Assembly (NCBI GenBank): GCA_905182455.1
Contig: CAJJBJ010000003.1
Span: 1-64,000, forward strand
DNA length: 64,000 nt
DNA from: an uncultured Planktomarina sp.
GTDB lineage: Bacteria > Pseudomonadota > Alphaproteobacteria > Rhodobacterales > Rhodobacteraceae
Reading direction: 5' to 3'
The stretch's first letter is position 1. Every line of letters starts with the position of its first letter. Shown here one piece after another: positions 20,436-40,600 of this stretch. The position numbers were made by a program, and so were the translations under genes. The notes below the pieces were generated by a model. It was not told the origin of the DNA. It searched no databases and saw only the letters and a program-made list of their open reading frames with translations.

Positions 20436-20649
20436 ATACCCGGCCCATGCCATTACGCTTGGTCCCTGGACGCTGGCACAAAGTACCTCGACGGGTCCGG
20501 GCCTCGCACCTCTGACCTTGCCAGTTTGGGCCGTAGAGCCATGGTTTGGGATTGGCTTTCATTGTGCTCAACTATCATCGGTTTATGGGGTTTTATTATA
20601 CCCCATCTTGGATGGCTTTGCTAGGCATGCGTGGCTTGGTCCACGGACC
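20436..20649. other. Intergenic sequence, nothing recognised
   Basis: GC-rich sequence after the SDR with no convincing reading frame. It leads into a copy of the dispersed repeat. Confidence 0.4.
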
Positions 20650-20990: not shown

Positions 20991-21026
20991 GTCTTGTCCC
21001 GCTTACGTTCCGGTCTCTGAACTCAT

Positions 21027-24296: not shown

Positions 24297-25052
24297 ATGC
24301 TGAAAATTAGTGGCTTGACCAAAATGTTTGGCGCATATCGCGCGCTTAACGTTGGTAACATCGATATCCCTCGCGCCCAAATTACCGGCATTATTGGACC
24401 GAACGGGGCGGGCAAGACAACGTTGTTCAATACAATTGGCGGAGCGCTGCGCCCAAATGCGGGAACCGTTTTGCTGGACGGTGGTGACGTAACTGGATTG
24501 TCGCCACATCGACTTGCGGCGAAGGGTCTTATCCGTACTTTTCAAATCAGTCGTGATCTGTCTGCTTTGACAATCCTGGAAAACTTGCTTGTCGCACGTC
24601 CCGGTCAGCTCGGGGAGGGAGTGGTATCCGCATTGTTTGCACGTAGAAAAATTCGCGCTGAGGAAGAAGCTGCAATCGAGCAGGCCCGATCACTTTTGCA
24701 ACGGGTTGATTTGTGGCGATTGGCGGATCAGTCAGCATCAAGCCTCTCGGGTGGCCAGAAAAAACTCCTCGAGGTGCTGCGAGCGATGATGTTGTCCCCC
24801 AAACTAATATTGCTGGATGAACCCGCTGCAGGCGTCGCGCCGACAATGGAGGGTGTGCTGTGCGATTTTATTCTCGAATTGAAAGCGGAGGGCGTCACAT
24901 TTGCTATCGTAGAACACGACATGGAAATGGTCAAACGACTGTGTGACGACATCTATGTCCTGACAGAAGGGCGAGAGATGATGCATGGTACCTACGAGCA
25001 GGTCACCACCGACCCCCGCGTGCTAAACGCCTTTCTGGGGTCTATGGTCTGA
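24297..25052 (+). CDS. Branched-chain amino acid-type ABC transporter ATPase (LivG-like)
   Basis: A 251-residue ATPase. It has Walker A GPNGAGKTT, signature LSGGQKKLLEV, Walker B LILLDEPAAGV and H-loop VEHDMEMV, with the LivG-type C-terminal AFLGSMV. It energises uptake of an amino acid or amide-like compound by the HAAT family. It is first gene of an operon whose members overlap by 1-4 bases; the next start is TGATG. The ribosome site AAGGGGG precedes ATG 24297. Confidence 0.9.
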   Translation: MLKISGLTKMFGAYRALNVGNIDIPRAQITGIIGPNGAGKTTLFNTIGGALRPNAGTVLLDGGDVTGLSPHRLAAKGLIRTFQISRDLSALTILENLLVARPGQLGEGVVSALFARRKIRAEEEAAIEQARSLLQRVDLWRLADQSASSLSGGQKKLLEVLRAMMLSPKLILLDEPAAGVAPTMEGVLCDFILELKAEGVTFAIVEHDMEMVKRLCDDIYVLTEGREMMHGTYEQVTTDPRVLNAFLGSMV

Positions 25053-25798
25053 TGACAGAACCGCTATTGAAAGTCGAAAAATTGTGCGCTGGCTACGGTA
25101 GTGGTGATATTGTAAAAAACGCGGGATTTACAGTATCTGAAAATGGAATTTCAACCATCGTTGGGCCCAATGGCGCTGGAAAATCTACTCTGATCAAGGC
25201 GCTGGTAGGTTTGTTAATTCCCCGATCTGGGTCGATTATACTGGCGGGCAAGGATGTCGGCAAGATGAACGCCCCGGCAAAGGCCCGAGCGGGCTTAGGG
25301 TATGTCCCCCAAGAGCACAATGTTTTCCGAAACCTGAGCATTGGCGAAAACATGATGCTTGCCTACGAATTTATAGCGCCCGATAGAGCGGGGTTTTCTG
25401 CGGCGAGGGATCGTGTATTTGACATTTTCCCGGACCTTGTAGGACGCGAAAGCGACCTTGCTGGAAACCTATCTGGCGGGCAGCGTCAGATGCTGGCTTT
25501 TGGCTGTGCGTTGATGCCACATCCGAGTCTGCTTTTGTTAGATGAACCCAGTGCAGGCCTTTCCCCCAAATACGTGGAAGGGATGTTCGCTGCCGTAAAG
25601 GCGGTGAATGATGCCGGTGTTTGTATTCTTATGATTGAACAGAATGTCAGGGAGGCCATGGCCATTTCAGAAACCGCAATCGTACTGGCAGCGGGAGAAA
25701 TTCGCGCGCAGATGCCAGCCCGTGAATTCATGAACCACCCAGATATCCACGCACTCTACATGGGTGCGGCAAGCACCCGACAGCAAGAGGGTGCGTGA
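25052..25798 (+). CDS. Branched-chain amino acid-type ABC transporter ATPase (LivF-like)
   Basis: A 248-residue ATPase. It has Walker A GPNGAGKST, a GYVPQEHNVFRNLS Q-loop region typical of LivF, signature LSGGQRQM, Walker B LLLLDEPSAGLSP and MIEQNVREAM. It forms a heterodimer with the LivG-like subunit. The start overlaps the livG stop and the end overlaps the livH start. Confidence 0.9.
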   Translation: MTEPLLKVEKLCAGYGSGDIVKNAGFTVSENGISTIVGPNGAGKSTLIKALVGLLIPRSGSIILAGKDVGKMNAPAKARAGLGYVPQEHNVFRNLSIGENMMLAYEFIAPDRAGFSAARDRVFDIFPDLVGRESDLAGNLSGGQRQMLAFGCALMPHPSLLLLDEPSAGLSPKYVEGMFAAVKAVNDAGVCILMIEQNVREAMAISETAIVLAAGEIRAQMPAREFMNHPDIHALYMGAASTRQQEGA

Positions 25799-26658
25799 TG
25801 TTACAGATTTTGCTTAATGGCATTGTGTCGGGCCTTCTTGTTGCCTTGCCAGCGGTTGCCCTATCTTTGACGTACGGCGTGCTGAATTTTCCGAATTTCG
25901 CCATTGGCTCAATGATCACATTTGGGGCCTACATTGCCTTATTTTTCAATGTGGACATTGGCGTCTCGCTTTTTGTGGCAGCGGGGCTTGCAGCTGTTGG
26001 GCTCGCAGCTGTCGCACTACTAATCGACCGCCTCGTCTATCGACCACTAAGAGGGGCGGATCACGTCACGTTGCTTGTGGCTTCGATAGGCGTCTATTTT
26101 GTTCTGGAGAATGTGGTTCGATTCCTGTTTGGATCAGACATTCGGGGCTACGACGTAACAGTTGCTCGTCCGCATCGATGGATGGGATTGCGGGTTAACA
26201 ACGAGCAGATCCTAATATTTGTCGTGGCGTTTCTGGCGATGGTCATTGTTTGGTTCATCCTGATGCGCACCCCATTTGGGCGCGCGATGCGGGCAGTCTC
26301 TGACAATCCAGATCTTGCTGACGTCAGGGGTATCAGTCGCAACAAGGTCATTGCTCTGGTGTGGGTGATTGCCGCGGCGCTATGTTCAACCGCTGGCGTT
26401 CTGATTGGAATGGATGGGATCATCGATCCGCTCATGGGCTGGAATTATGTGTTGCCTTTGTTCGCGGCAGTCATTCTTGGGGGCATTGGCAATCCTTTGG
26501 GCGCTGTATTGGGCGCGCTTATCATTGGTATTGTTGAAGAAATGGCCACACTTGTGTTACCCACGACTTACCGACAGGCGGTTTCATTCGTCATTATAGT
26601 TTTGGTACTTTTACTGCGCCCACATGGGCTTCTTGGCAAACCGAGGATCAGCAGATGA
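25798..26658 (+). CDS. Branched-chain amino acid-type ABC permease (LivH-like)
   Basis: A 286-residue inner-membrane protein with about eight hydrophobic segments. Family motifs are LTYGVLNFPNFAIG near residue 25 and RAVSDNPDLADVRGI (the ATPase-contact loop), with AVILGGIGNPLGAVLGA near the C-terminus. ATG 25798 overlaps the livF stop (TGATG); an in-frame GTG lies three bases earlier. Confidence 0.9.
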   Translation: MLQILLNGIVSGLLVALPAVALSLTYGVLNFPNFAIGSMITFGAYIALFFNVDIGVSLFVAAGLAAVGLAAVALLIDRLVYRPLRGADHVTLLVASIGVYFVLENVVRFLFGSDIRGYDVTVARPHRWMGLRVNNEQILIFVVAFLAMVIVWFILMRTPFGRAMRAVSDNPDLADVRGISRNKVIALVWVIAAALCSTAGVLIGMDGIIDPLMGWNYVLPLFAAVILGGIGNPLGAVLGALIIGIVEEMATLVLPTTYRQAVSFVIIVLVLLLRPHGLLGKPRISR

Positions 26659-27563
26659 TTGGGTATCTTACTGCAATTTTGGTTGTCGTTCTCATTTCCG
26701 CACTCGTAGCCTTGGCGCTCAACCTGCAATGGGGCCAGGCCGGGATGGTAAACTTTGGTATCTTTGGGTTCTTCGCCGCAACATCTTACGTTGCGGCCCT
26801 GTCTTCCCTTGCTGGATACCCTCTTTTGATATCGCTGGTTTTGGCGATCCTGACCGGTGTTGCCCTGAGTGCGCTTGTCGCTCTGGTATCAGCGCGCCTG
26901 CGTGAAGATTATTTCGCAATTGCGACACTTGCATTTGCTGAGGCTGTTCGATTGTTTCTGCTGAACGAAACATGGCTTACAGGTGGTGCGAACGGCTTAC
27001 CCGGCATTCCACGACCGTTGTCAGCTTACTCGTCGGGCCAAAGCTATGAACTGCTGTTTTTTGTTATGGCGCTTGTCCTTGCAGCAATCTGTTTTGCCTT
27101 TGCCGAAGCTCTTACAAAATCTCCTTTTGGCCGCGTGCTGCGTGCCCTGCGCGAAGACGATCTAGTGGCCGCAACGCTGGGTAAACACGTACTTAGCTTT
27201 CGTATTTGGGCTTTTTCTGCGGGGGGTGCCATCCTTGGCGTGGCTGGTTACCTGCACAGCTCTTATTTCGGGTATATCGATCCAACCCAGTTTGGGGCTT
27301 TCGTCACTGCCTATGCGTTCATGGCGGTGATTGCGGGGGGCCGCGGTTCTAATACCGGACTGCTGTTTGGTGCAGTTTCGGTCATGGTACTGTTAGAAGG
27401 AACCCGTTTTCTTAAGGACCTGATGCCCTTTCTAGATGCCGGACAAGCCGCCTCTTTACGCCTAATATTGATTGGTGCCGGCTTGATTTTGTTACTGATT
27501 TATAAACCACAAGGCTTCTTTCGCGAACACCGCTTGAGAGTTGATAAAGGAGATACCAAATGA
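26655..27563 (+). CDS. Branched-chain amino acid-type ABC permease (LivM-like)
   Basis: A 302-residue inner-membrane protein. LivM-type motifs are ALNLQWGQAGMVNFG near residue 21, LREDYFAIATLAFAE, the ATPase-contact loop RVLRALREDDLVAATLGK, and AGGRGSNTGLLFGA. It starts within the livH stop (ATGA) and ends overlapping the next gene (ATGA). It partners the LivH-like subunit. Confidence 0.9.
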   Translation: MIGYLTAILVVVLISALVALALNLQWGQAGMVNFGIFGFFAATSYVAALSSLAGYPLLISLVLAILTGVALSALVALVSARLREDYFAIATLAFAEAVRLFLLNETWLTGGANGLPGIPRPLSAYSSGQSYELLFFVMALVLAAICFAFAEALTKSPFGRVLRALREDDLVAATLGKHVLSFRIWAFSAGGAILGVAGYLHSSYFGYIDPTQFGAFVTAYAFMAVIAGGRGSNTGLLFGAVSVMVLLEGTRFLKDLMPFLDAGQAASLRLILIGAGLILLLIYKPQGFFREHRLRVDKGDTK

Positions 27564-28111
27564 ATAGAATACCTCTAATCGCCGCGGAAACATTGCAAGA
27601 TGATGCCCGCGAGGTTTTTGAAGACATGAAGCGTTACGGGCCCTTTGGAAATTTGTTGGGTGCAATGGCGCATAGGCCAACAATCCTGAAACACCTGTTT
27701 AGTATGCTTTTGGATCTGCGGGATGAAGCGGTGCTGCCACGGCGATCTCTGGAGGTGGCGTTGGTTGTGGTCTCCAAGCTGAACGAATGCGCCTATTGCG
27801 TTTCGCACCATGCGCCAATGCTTTCAGTGCAGGGACTAAGCCAAGAGGGTATTGACCGTCTGTTGGACGGCGAAGACCACCCCGAACTAGACGAGGTGGA
27901 CAAAATTGTGGTGCGCTATGCTGAGGCGGTGACCAATCGCTCTAACCAGATGCGTGATGCAGAAGTCGATGCACTCAGACCACATTTCAACGATGCACAA
28001 ATCGTGGAGCTGACATGGCGCATTGCGCTGTGTGGTGCGTTCAACCGATTCAATGATTCACTACAACTACCTTTGGAAGACGGGGGTGAGACGGCCCTTA
28101 ATAAATCTTGA
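27560..28111 (+). CDS. Carboxymuconolactone decarboxylase / AhpD-like protein
   Basis: A 183-residue all-helical protein with the AhpD-type redox motif CAYCVSHH near residue 75 (Cys-x-x-Cys followed by His). Proteins of this family are peroxidase-related thiol enzymes or lactone decarboxylases. It overlaps the livM stop by 4 bases and precedes the binding-protein gene by 23 bases, so it is embedded inside the transporter operon. That is unusual for a transport system and suggests a link to a reactive or thiol-active substrate. The ribosome site is AAAGGAGAT. Confidence 0.85.
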   Translation: MNRIPLIAAETLQDDAREVFEDMKRYGPFGNLLGAMAHRPTILKHLFSMLLDLRDEAVLPRRSLEVALVVVSKLNECAYCVSHHAPMLSVQGLSQEGIDRLLDGEDHPELDEVDKIVVRYAEAVTNRSNQMRDAEVDALRPHFNDAQIVELTWRIALCGAFNRFNDSLQLPLEDGGETALNKS

Positions 28112-28134
28112 AAATTTACAACAAGGAGAAGACC

Positions 28135-29367
28135 ATGAAATTTAATCAGATGAACCGCAGAACGTTTATCGGCACCACTTTAGTAGGGGCTGCTGCAAGT
28201 GTGCTGCCTTTGCCTGCAATTGCCAACACTGGGCCGGTTAAGATTGGCATGATATCTCCGCTTACCGGTAGTGGCGGATCTTATGGTCCCAATATCGTAA
28301 AAGCGGCTCAGGTTGTCGCCACACAAATCAATGACGCGGGCGGTATTCTTGGCGGGCGCATGATTGAGATAATCGCCGAAGACAGCGAGACCAATTCCAC
28401 TGCGTCGGTGCGTGCTGCGCGCAAGCTGCTGGATGTCAATCAAGTGAGTGCTATTGTTGGAATGTGGGGCTCCGGTCCGACACTCGCAGTGAAACCGCTC
28501 GCAATTGAGAAAGGCGTTTCGCTTAGCTGCCTTGGTGCGGCTGATGCCATCACTGAGGGTGACACTCAGGGCTTGATCTGGCGTTTTCAGGCCACAGGGC
28601 GCGAATGGGGCGTTCCCGCTGCAAAGGCCATGTTGGCTGCTGGACACAAAAAGATCGGTATTCTCGCTGTTCAAACAGCCTTTACCCAATCTATGATAGC
28701 TCCCTTTATCGAAACCATCGAAGCAGGAGGCGGCCAAGTTGTAGTTCAGGCTGAAGTGAAACCGGATCAGCCCACGTTTAGGGCGGAAGTTGACAAAGTT
28801 ATGGGTCAGGATGTAACGGCCGTTTTCCTGCCAGCCTACATTGCCCAATTCACATCAATAGCCAAAGAATGGTACCGTGGTGGTTATAAAACTGAGCTCT
28901 ATACACTAACAATCGCGGCCAGTGCAGGTGTAAACGGAGGTGGCAAATTCATTTCGGCGGTTGGTAATGAAGTTGGGGAAGGCATTCACCATTTGCAGCC
29001 TACCAATGATTCATCTTCTGCAGTTTATAAAGAATTTGAGTCCCTCATGGGCGCTAAGGCTGGCACGTTCCTACCTTTTTCAGCTTTATGTGCGGACTCG
29101 CTGGCGGTACAGGTTGGTGCGATGGAACGGGCTGGTACCGCTGATGCCACTGTCTACACAAAAGAAATCCTCACAATCACAAATGGGCCAGGTACAGCTA
29201 CCAGCGGCGCGGTAAACCTGCTGAATGCGATTCGTGCCGGTCAGGACGTCAACTACACGGGCTATGGAATGGATGTATCGTTTTATTCCAATGGTAATCT
29301 AAAGGATCGTCCGTTTGGGCACTTTGTAATCCAGAATGGTATAGATATCGAATTAGGCCTTGTTTGA
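28135..29367 (+). CDS. Periplasmic binding protein of the Liv-type transporter, Tat-like signal
   Basis: A 410-residue family 6 (LivJ-like) binding protein. ATG 28135 follows AAGGAGAAGACC; an in-frame TTG upstream is rejected. The N-terminus MNRRTFIGTTLVGAAA is a twin-arginine-like signal, cleaved near PAIA. Typical family segments are KIGMISPLTGSGGSYG, INDAGGILGGRMIE, and AKEWYRGGYK in the second lobe. It would deliver an amino-acid-like substrate to LivHM. It is last gene of the operon. Confidence 0.88.
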   Translation: MKFNQMNRRTFIGTTLVGAAASVLPLPAIANTGPVKIGMISPLTGSGGSYGPNIVKAAQVVATQINDAGGILGGRMIEIIAEDSETNSTASVRAARKLLDVNQVSAIVGMWGSGPTLAVKPLAIEKGVSLSCLGAADAITEGDTQGLIWRFQATGREWGVPAAKAMLAAGHKKIGILAVQTAFTQSMIAPFIETIEAGGGQVVVQAEVKPDQPTFRAEVDKVMGQDVTAVFLPAYIAQFTSIAKEWYRGGYKTELYTLTIAASAGVNGGGKFISAVGNEVGEGIHHLQPTNDSSSAVYKEFESLMGAKAGTFLPFSALCADSLAVQVGAMERAGTADATVYTKEILTITNGPGTATSGAVNLLNAIRAGQDVNYTGYGMDVSFYSNGNLKDRPFGHFVIQNGIDIELGLV

Positions 29368-29513
29368 AATGATGTAAGCTCATTTCAATAACCTGCGTTG
29401 TCCAAAGGGCTTGATCACTGAGGCAAGTCAAATTGGGCAACGCAAAAATGTCTTTGAAAAATCTAATAAAGTCATTAATCACCATACTAGTTTTCATTAA
29501 GCATGAGGATGAG

Positions 29514-30170
29514 ATGCAAAGAACCGAGAGGCGCAGTCAGCAGCAACGGTCAAGCGAAATGACTGAGAAGCTTCGAACTGCAACTATTCAACTAATCACA
29601 GAGGTTGGCTACGTCAACACAAACACCGTAAACATAAGCAGTCGCGCTGGAGTTTCACGGGGTGCCTTGCTGCACCACTACGCAAATAAGTCTGATCTAG
29701 TGATCGATGCCACATCCAAAATGTGGAAGTATTCCATATTGGCGACCCAATTATTATGCAAGAAATTGACGAATTGTGAAATGGATATAGATACCTTCGT
29801 AGACGGTTTGTGGCGAGAATCATTCAACGAAACCTATGTCTCAGTCACCATCGATATAATGATTGCGGCTCGTGGAGATAAAAAACTCGCACAACATCTA
29901 GACACTTCTCTGGCCGAGATGTTTACAGCTTATCGCGCGGCAGCTGCTGTCCTTTTCAAAAATGCCGGCTTGAATGCAGCCCAACAGGAGGTGGCTATGA
30001 CGGTTATCGTGTCGCTTCTACGAGGCCTGCGCGTTCAGGAAATGATGCGGCCAGATGCTGAGTTGGCTGAGGCGGTGCGTAAAGCTCTGAAACTGTTATT
30101 GAAAACGGCACTGGTTGCTAACAATACCCTTGTGCCGGAACGGGGCAGTTCAAAGAACCCTAATCTTTGA
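29514..30170 (+). CDS. TetR-family transcriptional regulator
   Basis: A 218-residue regulator. The start is ATG 29514 with GAGGATGAG upstream; a TTG start at 29433 would add atypical residues. The TetR helix-turn-helix is visible as SSRAGVSRGALLHHYANKSD (about residues 43-62). The helical ligand domain follows. It lies alone between the Liv operon and the LysR gene. The 13-bp palindromes upstream of both transporter operons are plausible targets, though this is unproven. Confidence 0.85.
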   Translation: MQRTERRSQQQRSSEMTEKLRTATIQLITEVGYVNTNTVNISSRAGVSRGALLHHYANKSDLVIDATSKMWKYSILATQLLCKKLTNCEMDIDTFVDGLWRESFNETYVSVTIDIMIAARGDKKLAQHLDTSLAEMFTAYRAAAAVLFKNAGLNAAQQEVAMTVIVSLLRGLRVQEMMRPDAELAEAVRKALKLLLKTALVANNTLVPERGSSKNPNL

Positions 30171-30511: not shown

Positions 30512-31387
30512 TTATGTTGCGACAGATGGCTTCTCAAATTGGGCGGCCAGCAGTGGCAGACGCTTAGTCAGTATATTTTCAGATCGTGCCACGAGTATAA
30601 GCGACCGATGGGCATCATTGGGCGCACGGAATTTTACCACCTCGTCGTTAGCATATCTGTGAACGTCTGGAGCGGGTAGCAGAGTATAGCCCAAACCGTT
30701 TTTGACACATCCCATAATGGCTTCGATATTGTCCAACATGACGGTCTCGTTCCCCAAAGGCCGATCAACAAGAGACATCGCTTTCGCGATTAACTTTCCT
30801 ATCCCCGTCTGTGGCATGAAGTGAAAGAACGTTTGCTTAGCAACAATATTGTTAAAGCCTTCTGCCGCAATCGAGGCATGGGCCGCAAAGACAAACGGCT
30901 CGTCTTGCAAAACCAATTGTGCCATCCCCTGTGGATCGACTTCTGCGTCTGTAACAACAGCCGCATCCAATTCCCCTGCGCGTACTTTTTCTTGTAAATT
31001 AACAGAGAGGCCTGTTTCGAATTCAAAGTCAGCGCATGGAAATTTTTGTCGACTGTTTACAAGGAAATCCGGAAGAAGCCGCGCCGACGCTGACGTCACA
31101 AACCCGATCCGGAATTTGCCAACAAGCCCGTCTTGTGACGCGCAAAGTTCAAGTAATTTATCCTCTTGGCCTAAGATATCCATGGCTTTTTCAACCACCA
31201 ATCGGCCTATCGCTGTCAAACGTGGCGGACGCACCGATCGGTCGAAAAGGGCGACATCAAGTTCCGTCTCCAGCGCCTTCATCTGCATCGATAGTGCGGG
31301 CAACGTCATATTCAGTTGGTCAGATGCATGCAGAAATGACCTGACCTGCGAGATCTTCACTAGGTTTTTAAGGGCTCTGGTTTGCAT
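30512..31387 (-). CDS. LysR-family transcriptional regulator
   Basis: A 291-residue protein. The winged helix-turn-helix is at residues 10-60 (SFLHASDQLNMTLPALSMQM, LFDRSVRPPRLT), followed by the periplasmic-binding-like co-inducer domain. It is divergent from the acyl-CoA dehydrogenase gene with 94 bases between, the usual arrangement for a LysR activator of the adjoining operon. In Variovorax paradoxus TBEA6, as I recall, the 3-sulfinopropionate genes also have a LysR neighbour. Confidence 0.88.
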   Translation of the reverse strand: MQTRALKNLVKISQVRSFLHASDQLNMTLPALSMQMKALETELDVALFDRSVRPPRLTAIGRLVVEKAMDILGQEDKLLELCASQDGLVGKFRIGFVTSASARLLPDFLVNSRQKFPCADFEFETGLSVNLQEKVRAGELDAAVVTDAEVDPQGMAQLVLQDEPFVFAAHASIAAEGFNNIVAKQTFFHFMPQTGIGKLIAKAMSLVDRPLGNETVMLDNIEAIMGCVKNGLGYTLLPAPDVHRYANDEVVKFRAPNDAHRSLILVARSENILTKRLPLLAAQFEKPSVAT

Positions 31388-31481
31388 AAATTCAAATTTC
31401 CTGAACTTAAAATTAAATCTTATTATGTTGAGTTGAATATTTCCAGCCCTATAGTGCTCTTAGTTCAAAGGAGAAACAGCA

Positions 31482-32699
31482 ATGACACATGCAGCAGTTG
31501 CCAAGGCCCGTAAACTTGGGCCAGTATTCGCGGCACGCGCCCGTAAATGGGATGTGGAACGCACATATTGCTGGGATAATATCGCCGATCTTGTTGACGC
31601 CGGGATCATGGGAATGACGATCCCTGAAGAACTGGGTGGTTTAGGTGCAAGCTACCTCAACGTTACCGAAGTAATCGAAGAAATTGCTAAAGTCTGTACA
31701 CTGACTGCACGCGTTGTCGTTGAAGCCAACATGGGTGGGATTAGCGCTGTCATGGCCTATGGAACAAAGGCGCAGAAAGCGTTTTGCGCCCCCATCGTTT
31801 TGGCGGGTGACAAACCCGCAATTTGCATCACCGAACCCAATGCAGGAAGCGCTGCGACTGAAATGCAAACAACGGCGCAGAGGCGCGGTGGTACCTATGT
31901 GATCAACGGTACTAAGCACTGGATTACGGGTGGCGGCGTGTCAAAACTTCACCTGATTTTCGCCCGAGTTTTAGATGATGATGGATCAGGACTTGGGATT
32001 GGGGGTTTCATCGTCCACGTCGATCCGCTGGCTGGGATAGAGCCAAAAGGGTTCTCTGTCCTAGGTCGCGAGAGGACTATGGGTTTGTGCGGAATGCCCG
32101 AGACAACCCTAAAATTCGAAGACTTGGTGGTGGATGCAGCCATGGCGCTGATCCCGCCGTCAGGGTTCAAGCGTGGCTTTGCTGATTTGATGAATGCATA
32201 TAATTCACAGCGCGTCGGCGCGGGAACGATCGCAATGGGCGTGGCTGCCGGTGCTTTTGAACATGCCAAAAGATATCTTACTGAGCGCCAGCAGTTCGGG
32301 CGACCTCTCGCAGAATTTCAAGGTCTGCAATGGATGGTCGCCGACATGGATACGCAGCTTCACGCTGCGCGATTGATGTTGCACGAGGCAGCCAGATCGC
32401 GCGGACCAAATAACAGCCAGTTTCCTGATATGACAATGGCTGCACGTGCCAAATTGTTTGCGTCAGAGATGGCGATCAAAGTTGTCAGTGACTCTTTACA
32501 GATGTTCGGCGCGCGCGGATACGGCGACCAAGAACCGCTTGAGCGCATGTACCGCGACGTCCGCATGTTCACAATCGGTGGCGGAACCGGGCAGGTTTTA
32601 CGAACACAGATTGCGGGCTCAGTGCTAGGCATTAAAACACCACAGGCTCGCGACGGTTATGCGCGTGCGGCGACGAAATCAAAAGAGGTAAAATCATGA
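31482..32699 (+). CDS. Acyl-CoA dehydrogenase-superfamily enzyme lacking catalytic Glu (3-sulfinopropionyl-CoA desulfinase-like)
   Basis: A 405-residue FAD enzyme with family motifs CITEPNAGSA, GTKHWITGG and the FAD-binding RQQFGRPLAEFQ. Both known places for the catalytic base lack Glu: the YEGT position reads IGGGT (365-369), and the isovaleryl-type helix-G position reads NSQRVG, giving Gln243. As I recall, 3-sulfinopropionyl-CoA desulfinase of Advenella mimigardefordensis has Gln246 there and an Arg at 84; here Arg77 sits in TARVVVEANMG. That pattern suggests removal of sulfite from a sulfinate-CoA rather than dehydrogenation. The ribosome site AAGGAG is strong. It is first of a four-gene operon with a CoA transferase. 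The family is certain; the desulfinase role is inferred. Confidence 0.8.
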   Translation: MTHAAVAKARKLGPVFAARARKWDVERTYCWDNIADLVDAGIMGMTIPEELGGLGASYLNVTEVIEEIAKVCTLTARVVVEANMGGISAVMAYGTKAQKAFCAPIVLAGDKPAICITEPNAGSAATEMQTTAQRRGGTYVINGTKHWITGGGVSKLHLIFARVLDDDGSGLGIGGFIVHVDPLAGIEPKGFSVLGRERTMGLCGMPETTLKFEDLVVDAAMALIPPSGFKRGFADLMNAYNSQRVGAGTIAMGVAAGAFEHAKRYLTERQQFGRPLAEFQGLQWMVADMDTQLHAARLMLHEAARSRGPNNSQFPDMTMAARAKLFASEMAIKVVSDSLQMFGARGYGDQEPLERMYRDVRMFTIGGGTGQVLRTQIAGSVLGIKTPQARDGYARAATKSKEVKS

Positions 32700-34318
32700 A
32701 GTCCAACCCAAACGACCGCTCCGCCGACCTTGTCGCTCGCAGGTTGTATGAAGCTGGATGTAGGTATGCTTTTGGCATGCCCGGTGGTGAAGTTCTGACA
32801 ATTGTTGATGCGCTTGAAAAGGCAGGCATCCAGTTCGTTTTGTGTAAACATGAAAACAGCGCGGGCTTTATGGCTGAAGGCGTGCATCACCTTACTGGTG
32901 TTCCCGGCGTTCTGGTTGCCACAGTCGGTCCTGGGGCTGTGAACGGTGTGAACGTGGTTGCAAACGCAGAACAAGACCGCGTTCCCTTGATCGTACTGAC
33001 GGGCTGCGTCGATGCAACAGAGGCATTGACCTATACTCATCAGGTCATAGATCATCAGGCCGTCTTTGCGTCTATTACCAAAGCTACGTTTTGTCTAACC
33101 GCCAAAGGTGCGGACATCATCGCGGACAAAGCACTGGCGATTGCCACTGATGGACGCAGCGGGCCTGTTCATATTGATGTGCCTATTTCTGTGGCGGACG
33201 AAAAACCAGGTACGATCGATTTACGTCGTAGAAGAGCACCGAGCCCGTCTGTTCCAACAGGTCCAGATCTAGACCTTGCACGCACATGGCTCACTGAGTC
33301 CGTAAAGCCAGTGATGATTGTTGGACTTGATGCACTGAAAGATGAAGCTGGCAGTAGTATTCTGAAATTCTGCGAGACATTTAACGTCCCCTTCATAACC
33401 ACGTATAAAGCCAAGGGCATCGTGCCTGAGGATCACGCCTTGTGCCTTGGTGGCGCAGGACTTTCCCCGCTGAATGACCAAACGCTTTTGCCCTTTGTCG
33501 AGGCTGCTGATCTTGTGATTTGCGCAGGTTACGATCCCATCGAGATGCGTGCTGGTTGGTGCGATGCCTGGGATGTCGAAACCACAAATATCATTGACAT
33601 TTCCGCTGAAGCAAACACCCATTACATGCACCAATCTGGCCTACACTTTGTAACTGATGTAGGGCTAACGCTTCGCAAGATATCCGATGGTGTGATAACA
33701 CGAGACACTTGGACGGACGGCGCTATTGTCATCGCCCAGGCCAAGCTAAATGCTGATTTCGCTGCTGAGGAAGTCTGGGGGCCAGGTGTCATTATTGAGA
33801 CGTGCCGTGCAAATTTGCCGCGCGAGACCGTAGCTACTGTCGACTCAGGTGCACACCGCATTCTGCTTTCGCAAAAGTGGCAGTGTTTCGAGCCTCGCGG
33901 TCTTTTGCAATCATCTGCCCTTTGTACGATGGGATGTGCGGTGCCATTGGCGATGGGCGCATCACTGGTTCATCCAGATCGCACCGTTGTGTCGTTCTCT
34001 GGCGACGCTGGGATGTTGATGGTGGGTGGCGAATTATCCACAGCATCTGAACTTGGCCTCAAAACTATATTTGTCGTCTTTGTCGATGCCTGCCTGTCCT
34101 TAATCGAGCTAAAGCAGCGTCAACGCCAGATGAAAAATGCAGGTGTTGATTTTGGCAGGCATGATTTCGAAGCATTGGGGAATTCTTTAGGTGGTGCCGG
34201 GCATACAGTAACATCGAAAACAGAACTGGTTGCTGCGCTGAGCGCCGCGCGCACGTGTGACACGTTCACGGTTATTGCAGCCATTATTGATCAGGGCGCT
34301 TATGATGGACGTATCTAA
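32696..34318 (+). CDS. Thiamine pyrophosphate-dependent enzyme (acetolactate synthase/2-oxoacid decarboxylase-like)
   Basis: A 540-residue protein with the three-domain ALS-like layout. The N-terminal pyrimidine domain carries FGMPGGEVLTIVDAL and the activating Glu in CKHENSAGFMAEG. A middle domain follows, and the C-terminal TPP motif starts GDAGMLMVGGE. The second metal-binding Asn of the GDG-x-N motif reads Asp (FVDACLSL). Such enzymes cleave or join carbon bonds next to a keto group. Beside an aminotransferase, decarboxylation of a 2-oxo acid is the simplest idea. It starts inside the acyl-CoA dehydrogenase stop (ATGA). Confidence 0.85.
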   Translation: MKSNPNDRSADLVARRLYEAGCRYAFGMPGGEVLTIVDALEKAGIQFVLCKHENSAGFMAEGVHHLTGVPGVLVATVGPGAVNGVNVVANAEQDRVPLIVLTGCVDATEALTYTHQVIDHQAVFASITKATFCLTAKGADIIADKALAIATDGRSGPVHIDVPISVADEKPGTIDLRRRRAPSPSVPTGPDLDLARTWLTESVKPVMIVGLDALKDEAGSSILKFCETFNVPFITTYKAKGIVPEDHALCLGGAGLSPLNDQTLLPFVEAADLVICAGYDPIEMRAGWCDAWDVETTNIIDISAEANTHYMHQSGLHFVTDVGLTLRKISDGVITRDTWTDGAIVIAQAKLNADFAAEEVWGPGVIIETCRANLPRETVATVDSGAHRILLSQKWQCFEPRGLLQSSALCTMGCAVPLAMGASLVHPDRTVVSFSGDAGMLMVGGELSTASELGLKTIFVVFVDACLSLIELKQRQRQMKNAGVDFGRHDFEALGNSLGGAGHTVTSKTELVAALSAARTCDTFTVIAAIIDQGAYDGRI

Positions 34319-34319
34319 A

Positions 34320-35525
34320 ATGTCTGCTGACAGGCTTCAATCTGTCCAACCCTCTATGATTCTGGGTCTCTTACAAAAGGCACGCAGTCTTCAATCTCAA
34401 GGTTATCCGGTGATCGATCTTGGGATTGGTGAACCAGATTTCAACACACCGGATCATATTAAAGAAGCCGCCATCGCTGCCATCGTGGCGGATCAAACGC
34501 GCTACACCGTGGTCCCGGGTACGCCCGCGTTGCGAGCAGCGATTGTTGAAAAGTTGAGTCGAGAAAATATGCTCAGTTATACGGCAGAGGAGGTCAGCGT
34601 AAGCAACGGCGCAAAGCAAGTCATCTACAACGCGTTTATGGCCACTTTGTCCAAAGGGGATGAGGTCATAATACCTGCCCCATACTGGTCTTCCTATCCC
34701 GATATGGTCGCTATCGCCGATGGCACGCCTGTAACTGTGGATTGTCCGCAAAGTGAGAACTTTCTGCTATCACCGGAAAAGTTGGAGCAGACCATCACAC
34801 CGTATACTCGCTGGCTTATGCTCAATTCGCCGTCCAACCCGACGGGTGGAGTCTATTCAGCGGATCAGCTTGCAGGGTTGGCCGACGTTTTACGCTGTCA
34901 TCCACATGTACGCATCCTAAGCGATGATATTTATGAACATCTTATGTTTGATGGCCACAAATTCGCATCCATTTTGAATGTGGCACCTGATCTGCGGGAT
35001 CGAACATTGCTTGTGAACGGTGTCTCAAAAGTCTTTGCAATGACCGGCTGGCGGATCGGCTACGGCGCAGGTCCTGTGGATCTGATCAAAGCAATGAATG
35101 TGGTGCAGGGACAAAGCTGCACACATGCCTGCTCGATTTCGCAAGCGGCGTCTATTGCCGCTTTAAATGGCCCAAGCGATTTTATGGCTGATCGCGCTAA
35201 CAGTTTTTCACGGCGCAGAGACATCGTGGTCTCTGCACTTAATGCCATTGTCGGTATTAGTTGTCTAAATCCAGAAGGCGCATTTTATGTCTATCCGAAT
35301 TGCGCGGGCTTGATTGACCGCAAAACCCCGGAAGGACGCATTCTCACCGATGATCAAACCGTGTGTAACTGGCTCCTTGATGTGCATCACGTATCTGTGG
35401 TGCCCGGCGTTGCCTTTGGCCTATCCCCCCATATTCGCATTTCGACCGCAGCATCCGAGGACACCCTGCGCGAGGCATGCAGGCGGATTTCAACTGCTTG
35501 TTTGTCATTGGAATCGTCGACATGA
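34320..35525 (+). CDS. Class I/II aminotransferase (aspartate aminotransferase-like)
   Basis: A PLP-dependent aminotransferase of about 401 residues. Motifs are LGIGEPDFNTPDHI, SNGAKQVIYNA, LNSPSNPTGGVY, SDDIYEHLMFDG (PLP Asp and Tyr) and the PLP Lys in NGVSKVFAMTGWRIGY. Start candidates are ATG 34302, 34305 and 34320. The last lies just after the TPP-enzyme stop and gives the usual AspC-like N-terminus. It would convert an amino acid imported by the neighbouring transporters to a 2-oxo acid for the TPP enzyme. The stop overlaps the CoA-transferase start (ATGA). Confidence 0.88.
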   Translation: MSADRLQSVQPSMILGLLQKARSLQSQGYPVIDLGIGEPDFNTPDHIKEAAIAAIVADQTRYTVVPGTPALRAAIVEKLSRENMLSYTAEEVSVSNGAKQVIYNAFMATLSKGDEVIIPAPYWSSYPDMVAIADGTPVTVDCPQSENFLLSPEKLEQTITPYTRWLMLNSPSNPTGGVYSADQLAGLADVLRCHPHVRILSDDIYEHLMFDGHKFASILNVAPDLRDRTLLVNGVSKVFAMTGWRIGYGAGPVDLIKAMNVVQGQSCTHACSISQAASIAALNGPSDFMADRANSFSRRRDIVVSALNAIVGISCLNPEGAFYVYPNCAGLIDRKTPEGRILTDDQTVCNWLLDVHHVSVVPGVAFGLSPHIRISTAASEDTLREACRRISTACLSLESST

Positions 35526-36694
35526 CAGGACCGTTAGACGGGTTGCGCATTCTTGATCTAAGTCGCATTTTAGCAGGCCCAACCTGCACACAGTTACTCG
35601 CCGACTTGGGAGCCGATGTTATCAAGATCGAAAATCCAACTACAAATGGGGATGATACGCGTTCTTGGGGTCCGCCTTTTGTCAAAGGCAAAGATGGGTT
35701 TGATACTGATTTGAGTGCGTATTTCGTCTGCGCAAACCGAAACAAGCGCTCTCTTGCCGTTGATCTGGCTAGTGCCGAGGGACAAAGCATTATTCGTGAA
35801 CTAGTGAAAAACAGCGATGTTCTCGTCGAGAATTTTACTGCTAACGGATTAAAAAAATATGGCCTGGACTACGAGGCGTTGTCAAAGATAGCACCTCAAC
35901 TCGTCTATTGCTCGATTACGGGATATGGGCAAACCGGCCCGAACGCGCACAAACCGGGATATGACCTTATGGCACAGGCCTACGGAGGCATAATGTCATT
36001 GACAGGTGAACCAGATGGTCAGCCTATGAAAGTAGGTGTTGGCGTCGCAGATGTCATGTGCGGAATGTATGCCTCAACCGGTATTTTGGCAGCCCTGCGG
36101 TACCGGGATATATCAGGGGAAGGTCAACACATTGATCTCGCTTTGGTTGATAGCCAAATCGCATGGTTGGTCAACGAAGGGACAAACTATCTGACCAGCG
36201 GTGAATTGCCCAAACGACGCGGTACCGCACACCCAAATATCGTACCCTACCAAGTATTCGCAACCTTCGATGGCCATGTGGTTGTCGCAGTTGGCAATGA
36301 CAGCCAGTTTTCAAGATTTGCAGAATGGCTCGGGCGACCAGATTGGATTGGTGATCCGCGTTTTGAAACGAATCCTGTGCGACTCAAAAACCGCGATGCG
36401 TTGATTGCAGAGATTGAACAGCTATTACGTCAGATCGAAACGAATGCTGTTGTTGCTGGGCTTGAGGCAATCAAAGTGCCTGTTGGACCTGTGAATACGC
36501 TTGATCGCGTATTCGCCTCTGACCAAGTCGAGGCTCGCGAAATGCTTGTAGAGATCCCCAATGGTGCAGGCCAATCCGACAGTATCAAGATGATCGGAAA
36601 CCCGTTGAAATTTTCCAAAACACCTGTGAGCTATCGTCACACGCCACCAATATTCGGAGAGCATACGGATGAAATTTTGTCTAACCTGTTTTAA
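35522..36694 (+). CDS. CaiB/BaiF-type (family III) CoA transferase
   Basis: A 390-residue family III CoA transferase. N-terminal LRILDLSRILAGPTCTQLLA and LADLGADVIKIENP and the catalytic Asp region KPGYDLMAQAYGG are typical. It transfers CoA, usually from succinyl-CoA, to a carboxylic acid. The start ATG 35522 overlaps the aminotransferase stop. In Variovorax paradoxus TBEA6 a family III transferase activates 3-sulfinopropionate next to a desulfinase; the same gene pair occurs in this operon. The substrate assignment is inferred. Confidence 0.9.
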   Translation: MTGPLDGLRILDLSRILAGPTCTQLLADLGADVIKIENPTTNGDDTRSWGPPFVKGKDGFDTDLSAYFVCANRNKRSLAVDLASAEGQSIIRELVKNSDVLVENFTANGLKKYGLDYEALSKIAPQLVYCSITGYGQTGPNAHKPGYDLMAQAYGGIMSLTGEPDGQPMKVGVGVADVMCGMYASTGILAALRYRDISGEGQHIDLALVDSQIAWLVNEGTNYLTSGELPKRRGTAHPNIVPYQVFATFDGHVVVAVGNDSQFSRFAEWLGRPDWIGDPRFETNPVRLKNRDALIAEIEQLLRQIETNAVVAGLEAIKVPVGPVNTLDRVFASDQVEAREMLVEIPNGAGQSDSIKMIGNPLKFSKTPVSYRHTPPIFGEHTDEILSNLF

Positions 36695-37404: not shown

Positions 37405-38151
37405 TTATAAGATTTGGCTCAAAAACTCTTTGGTCCGTGAATCCTTTGCATTCTGGAAAAAGGTCTCTGGTGGGCCATGTTCGACGATAATACCGCGATC
37501 CGTGAAATAGATATGATCAGCCACTTCACGGGCAAAGCCCATTTCGTGTGTCACCAAGATACAGGTCATGCCATCCTCAGCAAGGTCCTTGATGGTCTCC
37601 AAAACCTCACCAACGGTTTCAGGATCAAGCGCGGCGGTTACCTCATCAAACAAGATAACATCGGGCTGCATCGCGAGCGAGCGTGCGATTGCCACGCGTT
37701 GTTGCTGACCACCGGATAGCTCGCCCGGATAGGCGTCTTCCTTGCCTTCCAGACGCACTTTCTTAATCAGTGCACGGGCTGTTTCTTCGGCTATAGATTT
37801 GTCCTGCTTCAACACCCGCACTGGCGCCATCATGACGTTCTGTAAAGCAGTCCTGTGAGGGAAGAGATTGTATTGCTGAAACACCATCCCAACCTTCCTG
37901 CGCAGCTGAAGCTTGTCGAGCTTTGGGTCATTCACTTCTATACCTTCGACCTTGATTGAGCCTTTCTGAATGTCATTTAGCGCATTTACACAGCGAATTA
38001 GTGTGGATTTTCCAGACCCTGACGGTCCGATTATGCAGATGACATCACCCTTCATTACATCGAGCGAGATGCCTTTCAGCACATGAAGATCCCCGAATGA
38101 CTTATGCACATTTTTTATTGAAACCATTGGCTCTGCAGGTGTCCAGCTCAT
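37405..38151 (-). CDS. Polar amino acid ABC transporter ATPase (GlnQ type)
   Basis: A 248-residue ATPase. It has Walker A GPSGSGKST, Q-loop MVFQQYNLFPH, signature LSGGQQQRVAIARSLA, Walker B VILFDEVTAALDP and H-loop LVTHEMGFAREV. The common DEPTSALD is DEVTAALD here (Pro to Val). It is last gene of a minus-strand operon with two permeases and a binding protein. Confidence 0.9.
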   Translation of the reverse strand: MSWTPAEPMVSIKNVHKSFGDLHVLKGISLDVMKGDVICIIGPSGSGKSTLIRCVNALNDIQKGSIKVEGIEVNDPKLDKLQLRRKVGMVFQQYNLFPHRTALQNVMMAPVRVLKQDKSIAEETARALIKKVRLEGKEDAYPGELSGGQQQRVAIARSLAMQPDVILFDEVTAALDPETVGEVLETIKDLAEDGMTCILVTHEMGFAREVADHIYFTDRGIIVEHGPPETFFQNAKDSRTKEFLSQIL

Positions 38152-38160
38152 ATCAAGTCC

Positions 38161-38997
38161 TCAGGTTATGAAAGCGTATTTCTTCTCCAACCACACGGTG
38201 AACCGAGCGATTGGGTAGCAGTAGATAAAAAACAATAACAAAATGAAGCCGTAAAAGGGAGCCAGAAGCTCAGGGCGGCCACCTTCAGATGCTAAGGCTT
38301 GCCCAGTCAGGGTCATCACCTCATTCACACCAACTATTGACGCCAGAACCGTGGCCATCGTCAGAATAGAGTACAGGTTCATCCAAGGCGGAAGCATCCG
38401 CTTTATGCATTGCGGCAATATTATGAGCCACAGAGTCTGGAGTCGTGTGTAAGCCAGGCTCTCAGCTGCTTCCCACTGACCGCTTGGCAATGATCTAACC
38501 GCACCGCGTACGATTTCGGATACGTTTGCCATCACGGGCAAAGACAAACCAAAGATTGCTTTCAGCCAATCTGGGAAAGGGACTTTAAATCCAAAGATGT
38601 TCATCTCAAACGGCAGCAAAAACATAGCGAAGAATAGTAGGACCAGCCAAGGCGCGTTACGGAAGAACTGCGTTACGAACCACGAGCTGTGTCGTGTAAC
38701 TGCCAGCAGCGATATCTGCCCCAAACCCAAAATCCCACCAATTATAGTGCCAAGAGCCATAGCACAGAAGGAAATAATAAGGTTAAAGGCAAACCCTTTT
38801 AGCAGCAGAGGTGCCCAGTCCAACAACACGGACAGCGGCGATTGTGCCTCATTTGTGGACTGCGCAAAGGCCAGACCCGGCCCGAATATTGCAATCAGAC
38901 CGATTGGCAAAATATGCCAAAGTTTAAGTCCCAAAAAAGGCTCAGGCGCGTGCGGGTTGGCTTGCAACATCACAGGCAAATCTGTTTTATAACTCAT
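38161..38997 (-). CDS. Polar amino acid ABC transporter permease 2
   Basis: A 278-residue PAAT-family permease. It has an N-terminal helix about residues 28-46, then the core with TRHSSWFVTQFFRNAPWLVL and the ATPase-contact EAA loop SGQWEAAESLAYTRLQTL. It overlaps the upstream permease gene by 4 bases. It pairs with permease 1. Confidence 0.88.
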   Translation of the reverse strand: MSYKTDLPVMLQANPHAPEPFLGLKLWHILPIGLIAIFGPGLAFAQSTNEAQSPLSVLLDWAPLLLKGFAFNLIISFCAMALGTIIGGILGLGQISLLAVTRHSSWFVTQFFRNAPWLVLLFFAMFLLPFEMNIFGFKVPFPDWLKAIFGLSLPVMANVSEIVRGAVRSLPSGQWEAAESLAYTRLQTLWLIILPQCIKRMLPPWMNLYSILTMATVLASIVGVNEVMTLTGQALASEGGRPELLAPFYGFILLLFFIYCYPIARFTVWLEKKYAFIT

Positions 38998-39740
38998 CCG
39001 CCATACCCCGGAATTTTCATCGCACGTTCCCAGCGATTCATTGCGCCTACCAAAATGCCGACAAGCAGGAAGTAGGCAAACAGCAGGAAGACCATCATCT
39101 CTGTAACATTTACATTATCCGACCAGATTTGGTTGGCCTCATACAACATCTCAGGTACCGCAATTGCGTAGGCCAAAGTTGTTGTCTTCACAAGGTTAAC
39201 GAGATTGTTGTTCAACGCTGGTAGCACGACACGAAACGCCAGTGGTAGAGTGATGTCGCGGTAAATCTGTAGTTTTGAAAAACCAAGTGCTTCGGCGGCC
39301 TCCACTGTGGATTTTGGAACCGCTTCAATCCCTGAACGAAAAATCTCGACGTTAAAGGCACCTGCAAAGAATGATAGTGAAATCGCAGCCCATGCGAAAC
39401 TGCCCAAGATCGGCGATTGCCCCCCCCAGTCGTTATCGACCCGAGGCAATAAAGTCCCAATCGCAAAATAGAAGAAGTAGAGCTGTACCAAGGGCGGCGT
39501 GTTTCGAAAAATTTGAATGTAGCCGTTGACTATGCGTCGCGTCCATTTAAACGAAGAACCTTGTAGCCAAGCACCTATTATTCCGATGATGGCCGAGAAA
39601 AACAAACAGACCAGCGATAACCAGATGGTTGTAAAAAACCCTTCCACCATACGGTTTCTATCATATTCGTCGTAAAGGAACGGCAAGTTTATACCCGTCT
39701 CCTGATACAGGACACGAAACCAATCGAAAATATATTCCAT
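38994..39740 (-). CDS. Polar amino acid ABC transporter permease 1
   Basis: A 248-residue PAAT-family permease. Typical features are YIQIFRNTPPLVQLYFFYF and FNVEIFRSGIEAVPKSTVEA followed by EALGFSKLQIYRDITLP. It has about five membrane helices. It sits 62 bases downstream of the binding-protein gene. Confidence 0.9.
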   Translation of the reverse strand: MEYIFDWFRVLYQETGINLPFLYDEYDRNRMVEGFFTTIWLSLVCLFFSAIIGIIGAWLQGSSFKWTRRIVNGYIQIFRNTPPLVQLYFFYFAIGTLLPRVDNDWGGQSPILGSFAWAAISLSFFAGAFNVEIFRSGIEAVPKSTVEAAEALGFSKLQIYRDITLPLAFRVVLPALNNNLVNLVKTTTLAYAIAVPEMLYEANQIWSDNVNVTEMMVFLLFAYFLLVGILVGAMNRWERAMKIPGYGG

Positions 39741-39802
39741 ACTGGCTTTCCCTCAGACGATTTCGACTGGGCGGGACCTGATGGTTCCGCCCAACCTTAC
39801 GA

Positions 39803-40600
39803 TCACTTGTATTTATCGTGCATCGCCAGAGCGAACGGCGTGTTTTCAACACCCCATTTTGTCTCAAGCTCAAGGATGCGACCCGTCTTGTGCCAATCGA
39901 TGATCATCTCGCCCATCATATCTCCAAAGTTTTGCTCGCCCAGTGCAACAGCTAAGCCCCATGGGGCGTCGTCAATAGTCTTAAGTGGCATCTCGTATTC
40001 AGACCAGTCTGGATCGGCAGCTTTGGCAACAATTGCGCTATCGTCATAAACGAACGCGGCACAGTTGCCGCCTCTGAGGGCGGCATACGCCTCTGCTGTG
40101 CCTTTAAATGCAACAATTTCTGCACCGTAATTTTGCGACGTGGCTTTGTTGTAGAACGCCCCTTGAATGCCACAAACTGGCTTACCGCGTAGGTCTTCCC
40201 ATTCCTTTAACTCAAGGCTCTTTAAAGCCAAAATATTGGTGCCGGATGAATAGTAGTTCGGGTCAGGAATTAAGACGACTTTACGACGATCCGGTTTATC
40301 GGTCATGGTTGCAATCATCAGATCAATCTTGCCCTGTTCCAAAAACTGCATCCGGTTGGAGCTGACAACAGGCACATATTCAATAGCTACGCCAAGTTTG
40401 TCAGCGACGTCCTTTGCCAAATCAGGCTCAATGCCTATAATGGCACCCGAGGTGTCCAAAAAACCGTAAGGCTTGTAGTCGGCCTTTACTCCAACGACCA
40501 AAGTTCCGCGTTCCTTGATTGTATCCAAGATGTCCGCTGCTGCAGAGGTGATGCTTAGCGCAGATACCGCAAGTGCAGTTACCAGTGTCTTGATTTTCAT
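39803..40600 (-). CDS. Polar amino acid-binding periplasmic protein
   Basis: A 265-residue family 3 binding protein. The signal peptide is cleaved near ITSAAAD. Then come GTLVVGVKADYKPYGF (ligand pocket), IGIEPDLAKDVADKLG, and QGKIDLMIATMTDKPDRR. GTNILALKSLELKEWEDLRG and CAAFVYDDSAI are also characteristic. It starts the operon, about 135 bases downstream of the multi-palindrome element shared with the Liv operon. The ligand is an amino acid or a close analogue, otherwise unknown. Confidence 0.9.
   Translation of the reverse strand: MKIKTLVTALAVSALSITSAAADILDTIKERGTLVVGVKADYKPYGFLDTSGAIIGIEPDLAKDVADKLGVAIEYVPVVSSNRMQFLEQGKIDLMIATMTDKPDRRKVVLIPDPNYYSSGTNILALKSLELKEWEDLRGKPVCGIQGAFYNKATSQNYGAEIVAFKGTAEAYAALRGGNCAAFVYDDSAIVAKAADPDWSEYEMPLKTIDDAPWGLAVALGEQNFGDMMGEMIIDWHKTGRILELETKWGVENTPFALAMHDKYK

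Follow-up and report, generated by a model that had tools for sequence, protein, structure and literature searches.

The work that characterised 3-sulfinopropionyl-CoA desulfinases used growth on dithio- and thiodipropionate, and the portions of the two studies cited here (PMC5373536, PMC6370202) describe how, in Advenella and Variovorax, a cysteine dioxygenase-like enzyme turns 3-mercaptopropionate into 3-sulfinopropionate. According to the cited part of the Variovorax study, the desulfinase cluster of Variovorax paradoxus TBEA6 also contains a putative acetolactate synthase, IlvX, and a semialdehyde dehydrogenase given by its locus tag; on 3-sulfinopropionate these proteins were up 6.78-fold and 6.69-fold, respectively, deletion of ilvX left growth on thiodipropionate unaltered, and ilvX was left without a role (PMC6370202). 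Here we describe a locus in a 64 kb stretch of contig 3 (the window, meaning all 64,000 nucleotides analysed) of an uncultured Planktomarina genome, which is 2.12 Mb in size and 95.8% complete. A gene for a member of the desulfinase family opens an operon in this window that also encodes a thiamine diphosphate (ThDP) enzyme, an aminotransferase and a class III CoA-transferase. We propose, with close to but not quite an even chance of being right, that the operon catabolises a glutamate-like amino acid with a side-chain sulfinate, most likely homocysteine sulfinate (2-amino-4-sulfinobutyrate). The assignment of the desulfinase is much more secure than this reading of the whole pathway; the central enzyme is of an already known kind, and the whole route is a prediction. 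The genes at the centre of the argument, with the regulator and the gap beside them, are the following:

30512-31387, minus strand: LysR-type regulator, divergent from the operon (named by Pfam)
31388-31481, no strand: promoter region between the divergent genes; part of it is conserved in a 21-locus alignment, and a Shine-Dalgarno-like sequence precedes 31482
31482-32699, plus strand: 3-sulfinopropionyl-CoA desulfinase with the acyl-CoA dehydrogenase fold (NF042439, 5af7/5ahs, residues 77, 243 and 367, tree)
32696-34318, plus strand: ThDP enzyme, proposed 2-oxo-4-sulfinobutyrate decarboxylase (PF02776, PF00205, PF02775)
34302-35525, plus strand: aspartate-type class I/II aminotransferase, proposed first enzyme (PF00155, PRK06107)
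35522-36694, plus strand: class III CoA-transferase (PF02515)

We place the protein encoded at 31482-32699 firmly in the 3-sulfinopropionyl-CoA desulfinase family, because the family cut-off, the nearest PDB sequence, the active-site residues, the clade and the structural search all agree. It passed the NCBIfam model NF042439 (3-sulfinopropanoyl-CoA desulfinase equivalog) with 643.9 bits against a cut-off of 600, and its best match among PDB sequences was 5af7, the Advenella enzyme (454.6 bits; the next PDB sequence scored 198.8). The identity to this enzyme, AcdDPN7, was 57% over 386 aligned positions, with Arg77 corresponding to Arg84, Gln243 to Gln246 and IGGGT (365-369) to IAGGT. The usual catalytic glutamate, found within YEGT in the dehydrogenases 4n5f and 3pfd, is replaced by Gly367, and AcdDPN7 also has a glycine there; the Gln243 column holds Gly and Thr in 4n5f and 3pfd. 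We take the Gln246 column to be the position of Glu254 in isovaleryl-CoA dehydrogenase. Among relatives, Arg77, Gln243 and Gly367 were identical in 98 of 98 aligned loci, which include L001, a record of uncultured Planktomarina whose desulfinase is 100% identical to that of the window and which is the window's own twin. In total, 351 desulfinase relatives were found and the best 80 of the 351 loci were kept, to which loci from other searches were added; from the desulfinase rows, loci shorter than 4,500 bases, listed duplicates and rows with less than 75% coverage or less than 38% identity were excluded, which left 98. The desulfinase of L109, being in two pieces, stood outside this residue count and is counted as a locus among the 99 considered below.

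The phylogeny and the structural comparison gave the same picture. In a tree of 54 rows hand-picked for spread, with an outgroup of 7 rows of which some lie on long branches, one branch with a Shimodaira-Hasegawa-like approximate likelihood ratio test (SH-aLRT) value of 99 split 47 family rows, including AcdDPN7, from the dehydrogenases, and the window desulfinase was placed on a branch of its own within an alphaproteobacterial subclade. An AlphaFold2 model of the protein (mean predicted local distance difference test score, pLDDT, 86.6) retrieved 5ahs/5af7 at Foldseek ranks 1-3 (E 1.1e-40 to 2.4e-39), with the next protein at 1.1e-26. The comparison of the desulfinase gene with its nearest relative, L002, yielded a nonsynonymous rate (dN) of 0.043 and a synonymous rate (dS) of 0.51, which indicates that the gene is under purifying selection. 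An earlier reading of the window made from the letters alone (the sequence-only reading) had singled out IGGGT at 365-369, Gln243 in NSQRVG and Arg77 in TARVVVEANMG, all of which proved exact, and the equivalence that it drew with Gln246 and Arg84 of the Advenella enzyme was borne out by the alignment to the sequence of the solved structure. Its proposal that the protein is a desulfinase is upheld by NF042439, by 5af7/5ahs, by the residues kept in all 98 rows and by the tree that it had called for, in which the protein groups with AcdDPN7 and not with the other dehydrogenases used.

The ThDP enzyme resembles acetolactate synthases in fold, and its model (pLDDT 83.2) gave a Foldseek template modelling (TM) score of 0.89 to the catabolic enzyme AlsS (4rjj). 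Nevertheless, acetolactate synthase was ruled out as its identity by missed cut-offs and replaced acceptor residues. The protein was below cut-off in each of the best 25 of 54 matched NCBIfam models, and the acetolactate synthase models that it missed were TIGR02418 (304.8 bits, cut-off 551.1) and PRK08322 (346.9 bits, cut-off 509). In AlsS, Gln424 and Gln487 position the second pyruvate, as stated in the cited part of PMC9469723; the corresponding columns hold Cys410 and Lys473 in the window enzyme. Lys238, Lys240, Arg285, Arg388 and Lys473 were invariant across 31 aligned rows, in which the window and L001 are one identical sequence, and they are different in AlsS; by this alignment, such a set of lysines and arginines would fit an acid substrate whose tail is negatively charged. 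In a tree of 33 ThDP enzymes, which includes L164 from outside the 99 loci, the label of desulfinase linkage needed 4 changes, 2 of which were forced by strongly supported branches alone, and a single clade for the 15 desulfinase-linked rows was rejected by the approximately unbiased test (p-AU 1.2e-126). Thus, the pairing of ThDP enzyme and desulfinase has been made or kept in several lineages.

The neighbourhoods of the 99 desulfinase loci were counted with per-family identity thresholds set by the analyst, and the counts are lower bounds where contigs end. A CoA-transferase was found in 14 loci, a ThDP enzyme in 14 and an aminotransferase in 5, all five of the latter lying among the 14 ThDP-bearing loci; a LysR-type match of at least 28% identity anywhere in the locus was seen in 78. 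The set of four genes occurs in the window (L001), in Roseovarius (L008), in a metagenome-assembled genome of the Hyphomicrobiales (L040), in a proteobacterium of another class (L145, genome G812, from a family of 36 genomes) and on plasmid pBB1 of Cupriavidus necator N-1 at 50-78 kb (L110), a stretch without annotation in the collection. The plasmid desulfinase is 77% identical to the proven AcdDPN7. The gene order on pBB1 is CoA-transferase, desulfinase, a TctC-type binding protein, a permease and two LysR-type genes, after which come the genes for the aminotransferase and the ThDP enzyme, for an aldehyde dehydrogenase of 485 residues and for an ArgE-type deacylase. The model that comes nearest to the aldehyde dehydrogenase is that of succinate-semialdehyde dehydrogenase (606.4 bits, below the cut-off of 646.35); the ArgE/M20-type deacylase exceeds the cut-off of TIGR01892, and the cluster also has a GlcD-like oxidase at 257.6 of 567.9 bits. 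The sequence-only reading had reasoned that an aldehyde dehydrogenase encoded elsewhere would be needed, and this logic gained from the gene in the C. necator cluster and from a homologue 48% identical to it on contig 4 of the window genome.

The two remaining enzymes were assigned only to broad kinds. The aminotransferase scored 553.9 bits against the aspartate transaminase model PRK06107, below the cut-off of 617; the operon copy is probably an extra one, because the genome holds, at another place, a 53% homologue whose matched stretch contains one stop codon. The CoA-transferase matched PF02515 over its full length (439.8 bits, profile 1-366 of 366), and its best NCBIfam model was the succinate-glutarate CoA-transferase NF052585, at 467.1 bits below a cut-off of 750.

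Under the proposed pathway, an amino-sulfinate would be taken up through a Liv-type ATP-binding cassette (ABC) transporter (step 1) and transaminated to 2-oxo-4-sulfinobutyrate (step 2), which the ThDP enzyme would decarboxylate to 3-sulfinopropionaldehyde (step 3). A dehydrogenase of the succinate-semialdehyde type, encoded outside the operon here and within the cluster in C. necator N-1, would then give 3-sulfinopropionate (step 4), to which the class III CoA-transferase would add CoA, probably with succinyl-CoA as the donor (step 5), and the acyl-CoA dehydrogenase-like enzyme would desulfinate the product to propionyl-CoA and sulfite (step 6). The scheme would run parallel to the conversion of glutamate through 2-oxoglutarate, succinate semialdehyde and succinate to succinyl-CoA, with a sulfinate replacing the distal carboxylate. 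Sequence tests support the family assignment of the step-6 enzyme, and the comparison of gene clusters supports a common membership of the genes for steps 2, 3, 5 and 6, joined in some clusters by those for 4 or 1; we infer the substrate, the order of the steps and every activity. The larger proposal, of a complete and undescribed gamma-sulfino amino acid route that copies glutamate breakdown in marine alphaproteobacteria, in a lineage of another class and in Cupriavidus, with the ThDP enzymes as a new kind of 2-oxo-4-sulfinobutyrate/2-oxoglutarate decarboxylase, seems to us somewhat more doubtful than an even bet. Among the matches listed in openly licensed papers, we found no described pathway with all these steps, in agreement with the sequence-only reading, and no bacterial catabolism of homocysteine sulfinate; nor did such papers yield one linking Planktomarina with organosulfur compounds or OpgC with a ThDP enzyme and a CoA-transferase. 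Taken together, the observation made in the sequence-only reading was confirmed, and its interpretation was partly supported.

A number of results weigh against the amino-sulfinate pathway, and they are given here with the explanations that they would favour. To our knowledge, homocysteine sulfinate is not an abundant marine compound, and the window operon is without an aldehyde dehydrogenase gene. It may be that only the desulfinase and the CoA-transferase handle sulfur, with 3-sulfinopropionate arriving from outside or arising from 3-mercaptopropionate, and that the aminotransferase and the ThDP enzyme, though controlled by the same regulator, work on a different amino acid. We consider this unlikely. 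In its favour, the ThDP gene was not seen in 85 of the 99 desulfinase loci, some of whose contigs end early, and an aminotransferase match was not seen in 94. A cysteine dioxygenase-type gene adjoins the desulfinase in L115 and lies about 6 kb from it in L114, and the cited part of the TBEA6 study reports that loss of ilvX was without effect on thiodipropionate growth and that certain proteins of this kind lay in one gel spot with proteins of the pathway (PMC6370202). A decarboxylase that feeds 3-sulfinopropionate from another source would fit these ilvX data, in a comparison of IlvX with the window enzyme by description. The thiol dioxygenase model PF05995 had no match at E <= 0.001 in the window genome and none in 20 of the 23 desulfinase-bearing genomes (19 of the 22 others), which would speak against a supply from 3-mercaptopropionate; however, this model is marginally sensitive. 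The absence is weak evidence, because PF05995 scores the dioxygenases of L114 and L115 only near its cut-off of 23 (22.3 and 31.3 bits). Also against a sulfur role for two genes alone are the ties between ThDP gene and desulfinase in several lineages and the series of aminotransferase, ThDP enzyme and aldehyde dehydrogenase beside the desulfinase of C. necator N-1.

The ThDP enzyme and the CoA-transferase might instead form an older unit for 2-oxoglutarate and succinate, for example one feeding the succinylation of glucans by OpgC; in the operon this unit would make or recycle the succinyl donor and leave the sulfur compound untouched. OpgC succinylates periplasmic glucans, and at 14 loci of the ThDP tree (L111-L113, L118-L123, L125 and L127-L130) a relative of the ThDP enzyme adjoins OpgC-type periplasmic-glucan and tetratricopeptide repeat (TPR) genes; 9 of these loci have a CoA-transferase match of 55-67%, and none of the 14 has a desulfinase match within the stretch. 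With thresholds that required the majority residue in at least 85% and at least 70% of rows, no residue separated the 15 desulfinase-linked from the 14 glucan-linked enzymes. Because glucan-linked relatives exist and no position sets them apart, the enzyme may in general be a decarboxylase of the 2-oxoglutarate type, acting on 2-oxoglutarate or another acid. In a sample of 398 genomes, the ThDP enzyme occurred in 5 of 7 desulfinase genomes and in 9 of 391 others (Fisher 5e-7, uncorrected for kinship); this co-occurrence is weak support for the pairing, because in 3 of the 5 genomes the ThDP gene lies at a glucan locus. In a further sample of 369 genomes from another class, it occurred in 2 of 4 desulfinase genomes and 1 of 365 others, again significant by Fisher's test, both co-occurring genomes being of one genus with the two genes on different contigs. 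An older unit of this kind is nonetheless improbable in our view, since succinyl-CoA is already supplied by the citric acid cycle, the aminotransferase and the gene resembling succinate-semialdehyde dehydrogenase beside the desulfinase are left unexplained, and the pairing recurs in several lineages. The same route could also start from a related substrate and end at the same 3-sulfinopropionyl-CoA; candidates are an N-acyl form, a cyclic form, a 2-hydroxy acid and a precursor at the thiol level that the cell would oxidise. The deacylase and the GlcD-like oxidase of the C. necator cluster are in line with this, as are the recurring AhpD-like gene and, in the Liv/desulfinase cluster of L145, an adjoining amidohydrolase gene (7541-8806) that passes the imidazolonepropionase (HutI) model and is not explained by the proposed pathway; of these extra genes the window operon has only the AhpD-like one, and we hold such a variant to be quite improbable here. 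A conventional acyl-CoA dehydrogenase with its base elsewhere, catalysing the oxidation of an acyl-CoA, has the fold in its favour and was ruled out by the family cut-off, the clade, the active-site residues and the nearest structure, all of which indicate desulfinases; its probability is very slight. The simplest account in our view is the catabolism of a glutamate-like amino-sulfinate.

At lower coordinates than the LysR gene lies a transporter operon followed by a second regulator:

24297-25052, plus strand: LivG-type ABC transporter ATPase (named from sequence; Liv-type genes recur in L040 and L145/L153)
25052-25798, plus strand: LivF-type ABC transporter ATPase (named from sequence; 51% LivG/F-type match in L040)
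25795-26658, plus strand: LivH-type permease (named from sequence; 67% LivH/M-type match in L040, 49% in L145)
26655-27563, plus strand: LivM-type permease (named from sequence; 42% match in L145)
27560-28111, plus strand: AhpD/carboxymuconolactone decarboxylase-family protein (PF02627; 51% match in L145)
28108-29367, plus strand: Liv-type substrate-binding protein, proposed amino-sulfinate binder (PF13458; 35% match in L145)
29433-30170, plus strand: TetR-family regulator (PF00440; 49% relative beside the operon in L040)

The sequence-only reading had linked two ABC transporters to the operon, one of which stood and one of which did not. The Liv-type operon (24297-29367) probably, though not certainly, belongs to the system, because Liv genes recur in other genera but not in every locus with the four-gene set. 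In L040, Liv genes and a TetR-like gene adjoin the four genes, and L145/L153 has genes matching LivH, LivM and the Liv binding protein as well as the AhpD-like gene; the best models of the L153 ATPase were UrtE and LivF, both below cut-off. No Liv match was present in the L008 and L110 stretches despite the four-gene set, and the case of L008 also counts against the proposed pathway. Members of the AhpD family occurred in 6 of the 99 desulfinase loci (L001, L002, L077, L114, L135 and L145). The HisP-type transporter (37405-40600) was not accepted as a part, its binding protein having a match in 1 of the 99 loci, namely the twin L001. Matches of 55% to the HisP-type ATPase and 32% to one permease about 10 kb from the L116 desulfinase are taken as chance.

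The gene positions and the divergence of LysR from the four plus-strand genes were as the sequence-only reading had stated, and Pfam agrees. The junctions of the four genes overlap or abut, which suggests that they form one transcription unit; ATGA overlaps lie at 32696-32699 and 35522-35525, and the third junction depends on the aminotransferase start, at 34302/34305 (overlapping) or 34320 (one base apart). For the CoA-transferase, the ATGA overlap with its neighbour at 35522-35525 makes 35522 the probable start and not 35477. In the gap between the LysR and desulfinase genes (31388-31481), a TATTCGATTG..TGAA-like stretch is kept in many of 21 aligned loci and may be a binding site for LysR. 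Within the genus, the operon seems to be an accessory trait, because the desulfinase gene was found at E <= 1e-90 in 1 of 19 other genomes (G018) and not in the remaining 18, several of which are incomplete. Upstream of the Liv operon, at 19619-21872, a seemingly broken short-chain dehydrogenase frame and an IS3-type transposase were noted by eye, and these fit an accessory island.

Several further observations concern the surroundings of desulfinase and ThDP genes in relatives. In L117 (Mesorhizobium loti pML2037), LysR, CoA-transferase, desulfinase and sulfate-exporter-type genes lie together at 5362-17313, near genes of the glutamine synthetase and gamma-glutamyl-GABA (gamma-aminobutyrate) hydrolase families and an APC permease gene; these neighbours suggest a gamma-glutamylated amine as another feed. 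A sulfoacetaldehyde acetyltransferase gene lies near the desulfinase in L133 (12565-14343; TIGR03457 961.3 bits, cut-off 676.4), and look-alikes recognised by eye lie near it in Tateyamaria (L009, L011 and L016, at about 5424-7218), an arrangement that would link the desulfinase to taurine breakdown. In two different classes, genes near the ThDP gene (L049, 18148-19239; L162, 7930-8925) had the D-cysteate sulfo-lyase CuyA as their best model, with 308.2 and 349.9 bits, both below the cut-off of 450. At about 11230 in L014, some 12% of the ThDP enzyme was matched in a short stretch after the desulfinase, a picture that a decayed operon would give. The two-piece desulfinase of L109 (Parasedimentitalea marina pW43B, 13085-14113) is absent from the gene table, which annotates its ThDP and LysR neighbours as whole genes.

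Desulfinase genes are widespread in marine Rhodobacteraceae and their relatives, and most of the genomes examined gave no thiol dioxygenase match in the marginally sensitive test described above. If the proposed pathway is true, a feed through transaminase, decarboxylase and aldehyde dehydrogenase would explain part of the gap in the natural supply of desulfinases, an amino-sulfinate would join the organic sulfur compounds usable by bacterioplankton, and the unexplained enzyme of TBEA6 would gain a testable role.

Compared with known systems, the window ThDP enzyme shares with AlsS (4rjj) the fold and an aligned glutamate, its Glu53 standing at Glu61, which we take to be the ThDP glutamate; it differs in overall sequence (about 29% identity) and in the change of Gln424/Gln487 to Cys410/Lys473. 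In the arginine transaminase pathway of AruH and AruI, an aminotransferase and an acetolactate synthase-like decarboxylase are followed by an aldehyde dehydrogenase, so that the outline is alike and the substrate different; the window enzyme scored 211.6 of 500 bits against PRK07524 (5-guanidino-2-oxopentanoate decarboxylase), and we know of no CoA-transferase or desulfinase in that pathway. As far as the cited part of PMC5373536 describes it, Advenella mimigardefordensis DPN7 likewise has LysR and class III acyl-CoA transferase genes beside the desulfinase, and its cluster includes a gene with an AhpD core domain, to be compared with the AhpD-family gene of the window; in contrast, the window operon has an aminotransferase and a ThDP enzyme and no dioxygenase gene. 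The TBEA6 system, in the cited part of PMC6370202, differs in its mdo and enoyl-CoA hydratase genes for thiodipropionate. On plasmid pBB1 of C. necator N-1, CoA-transferase, desulfinase, aminotransferase and ThDP enzyme again stand in one cluster, which is larger than the window operon by the dehydrogenase resembling succinate-semialdehyde dehydrogenase, the ArgE-type deacylase, the binding protein of the TctC type and the GlcD-like oxidase.

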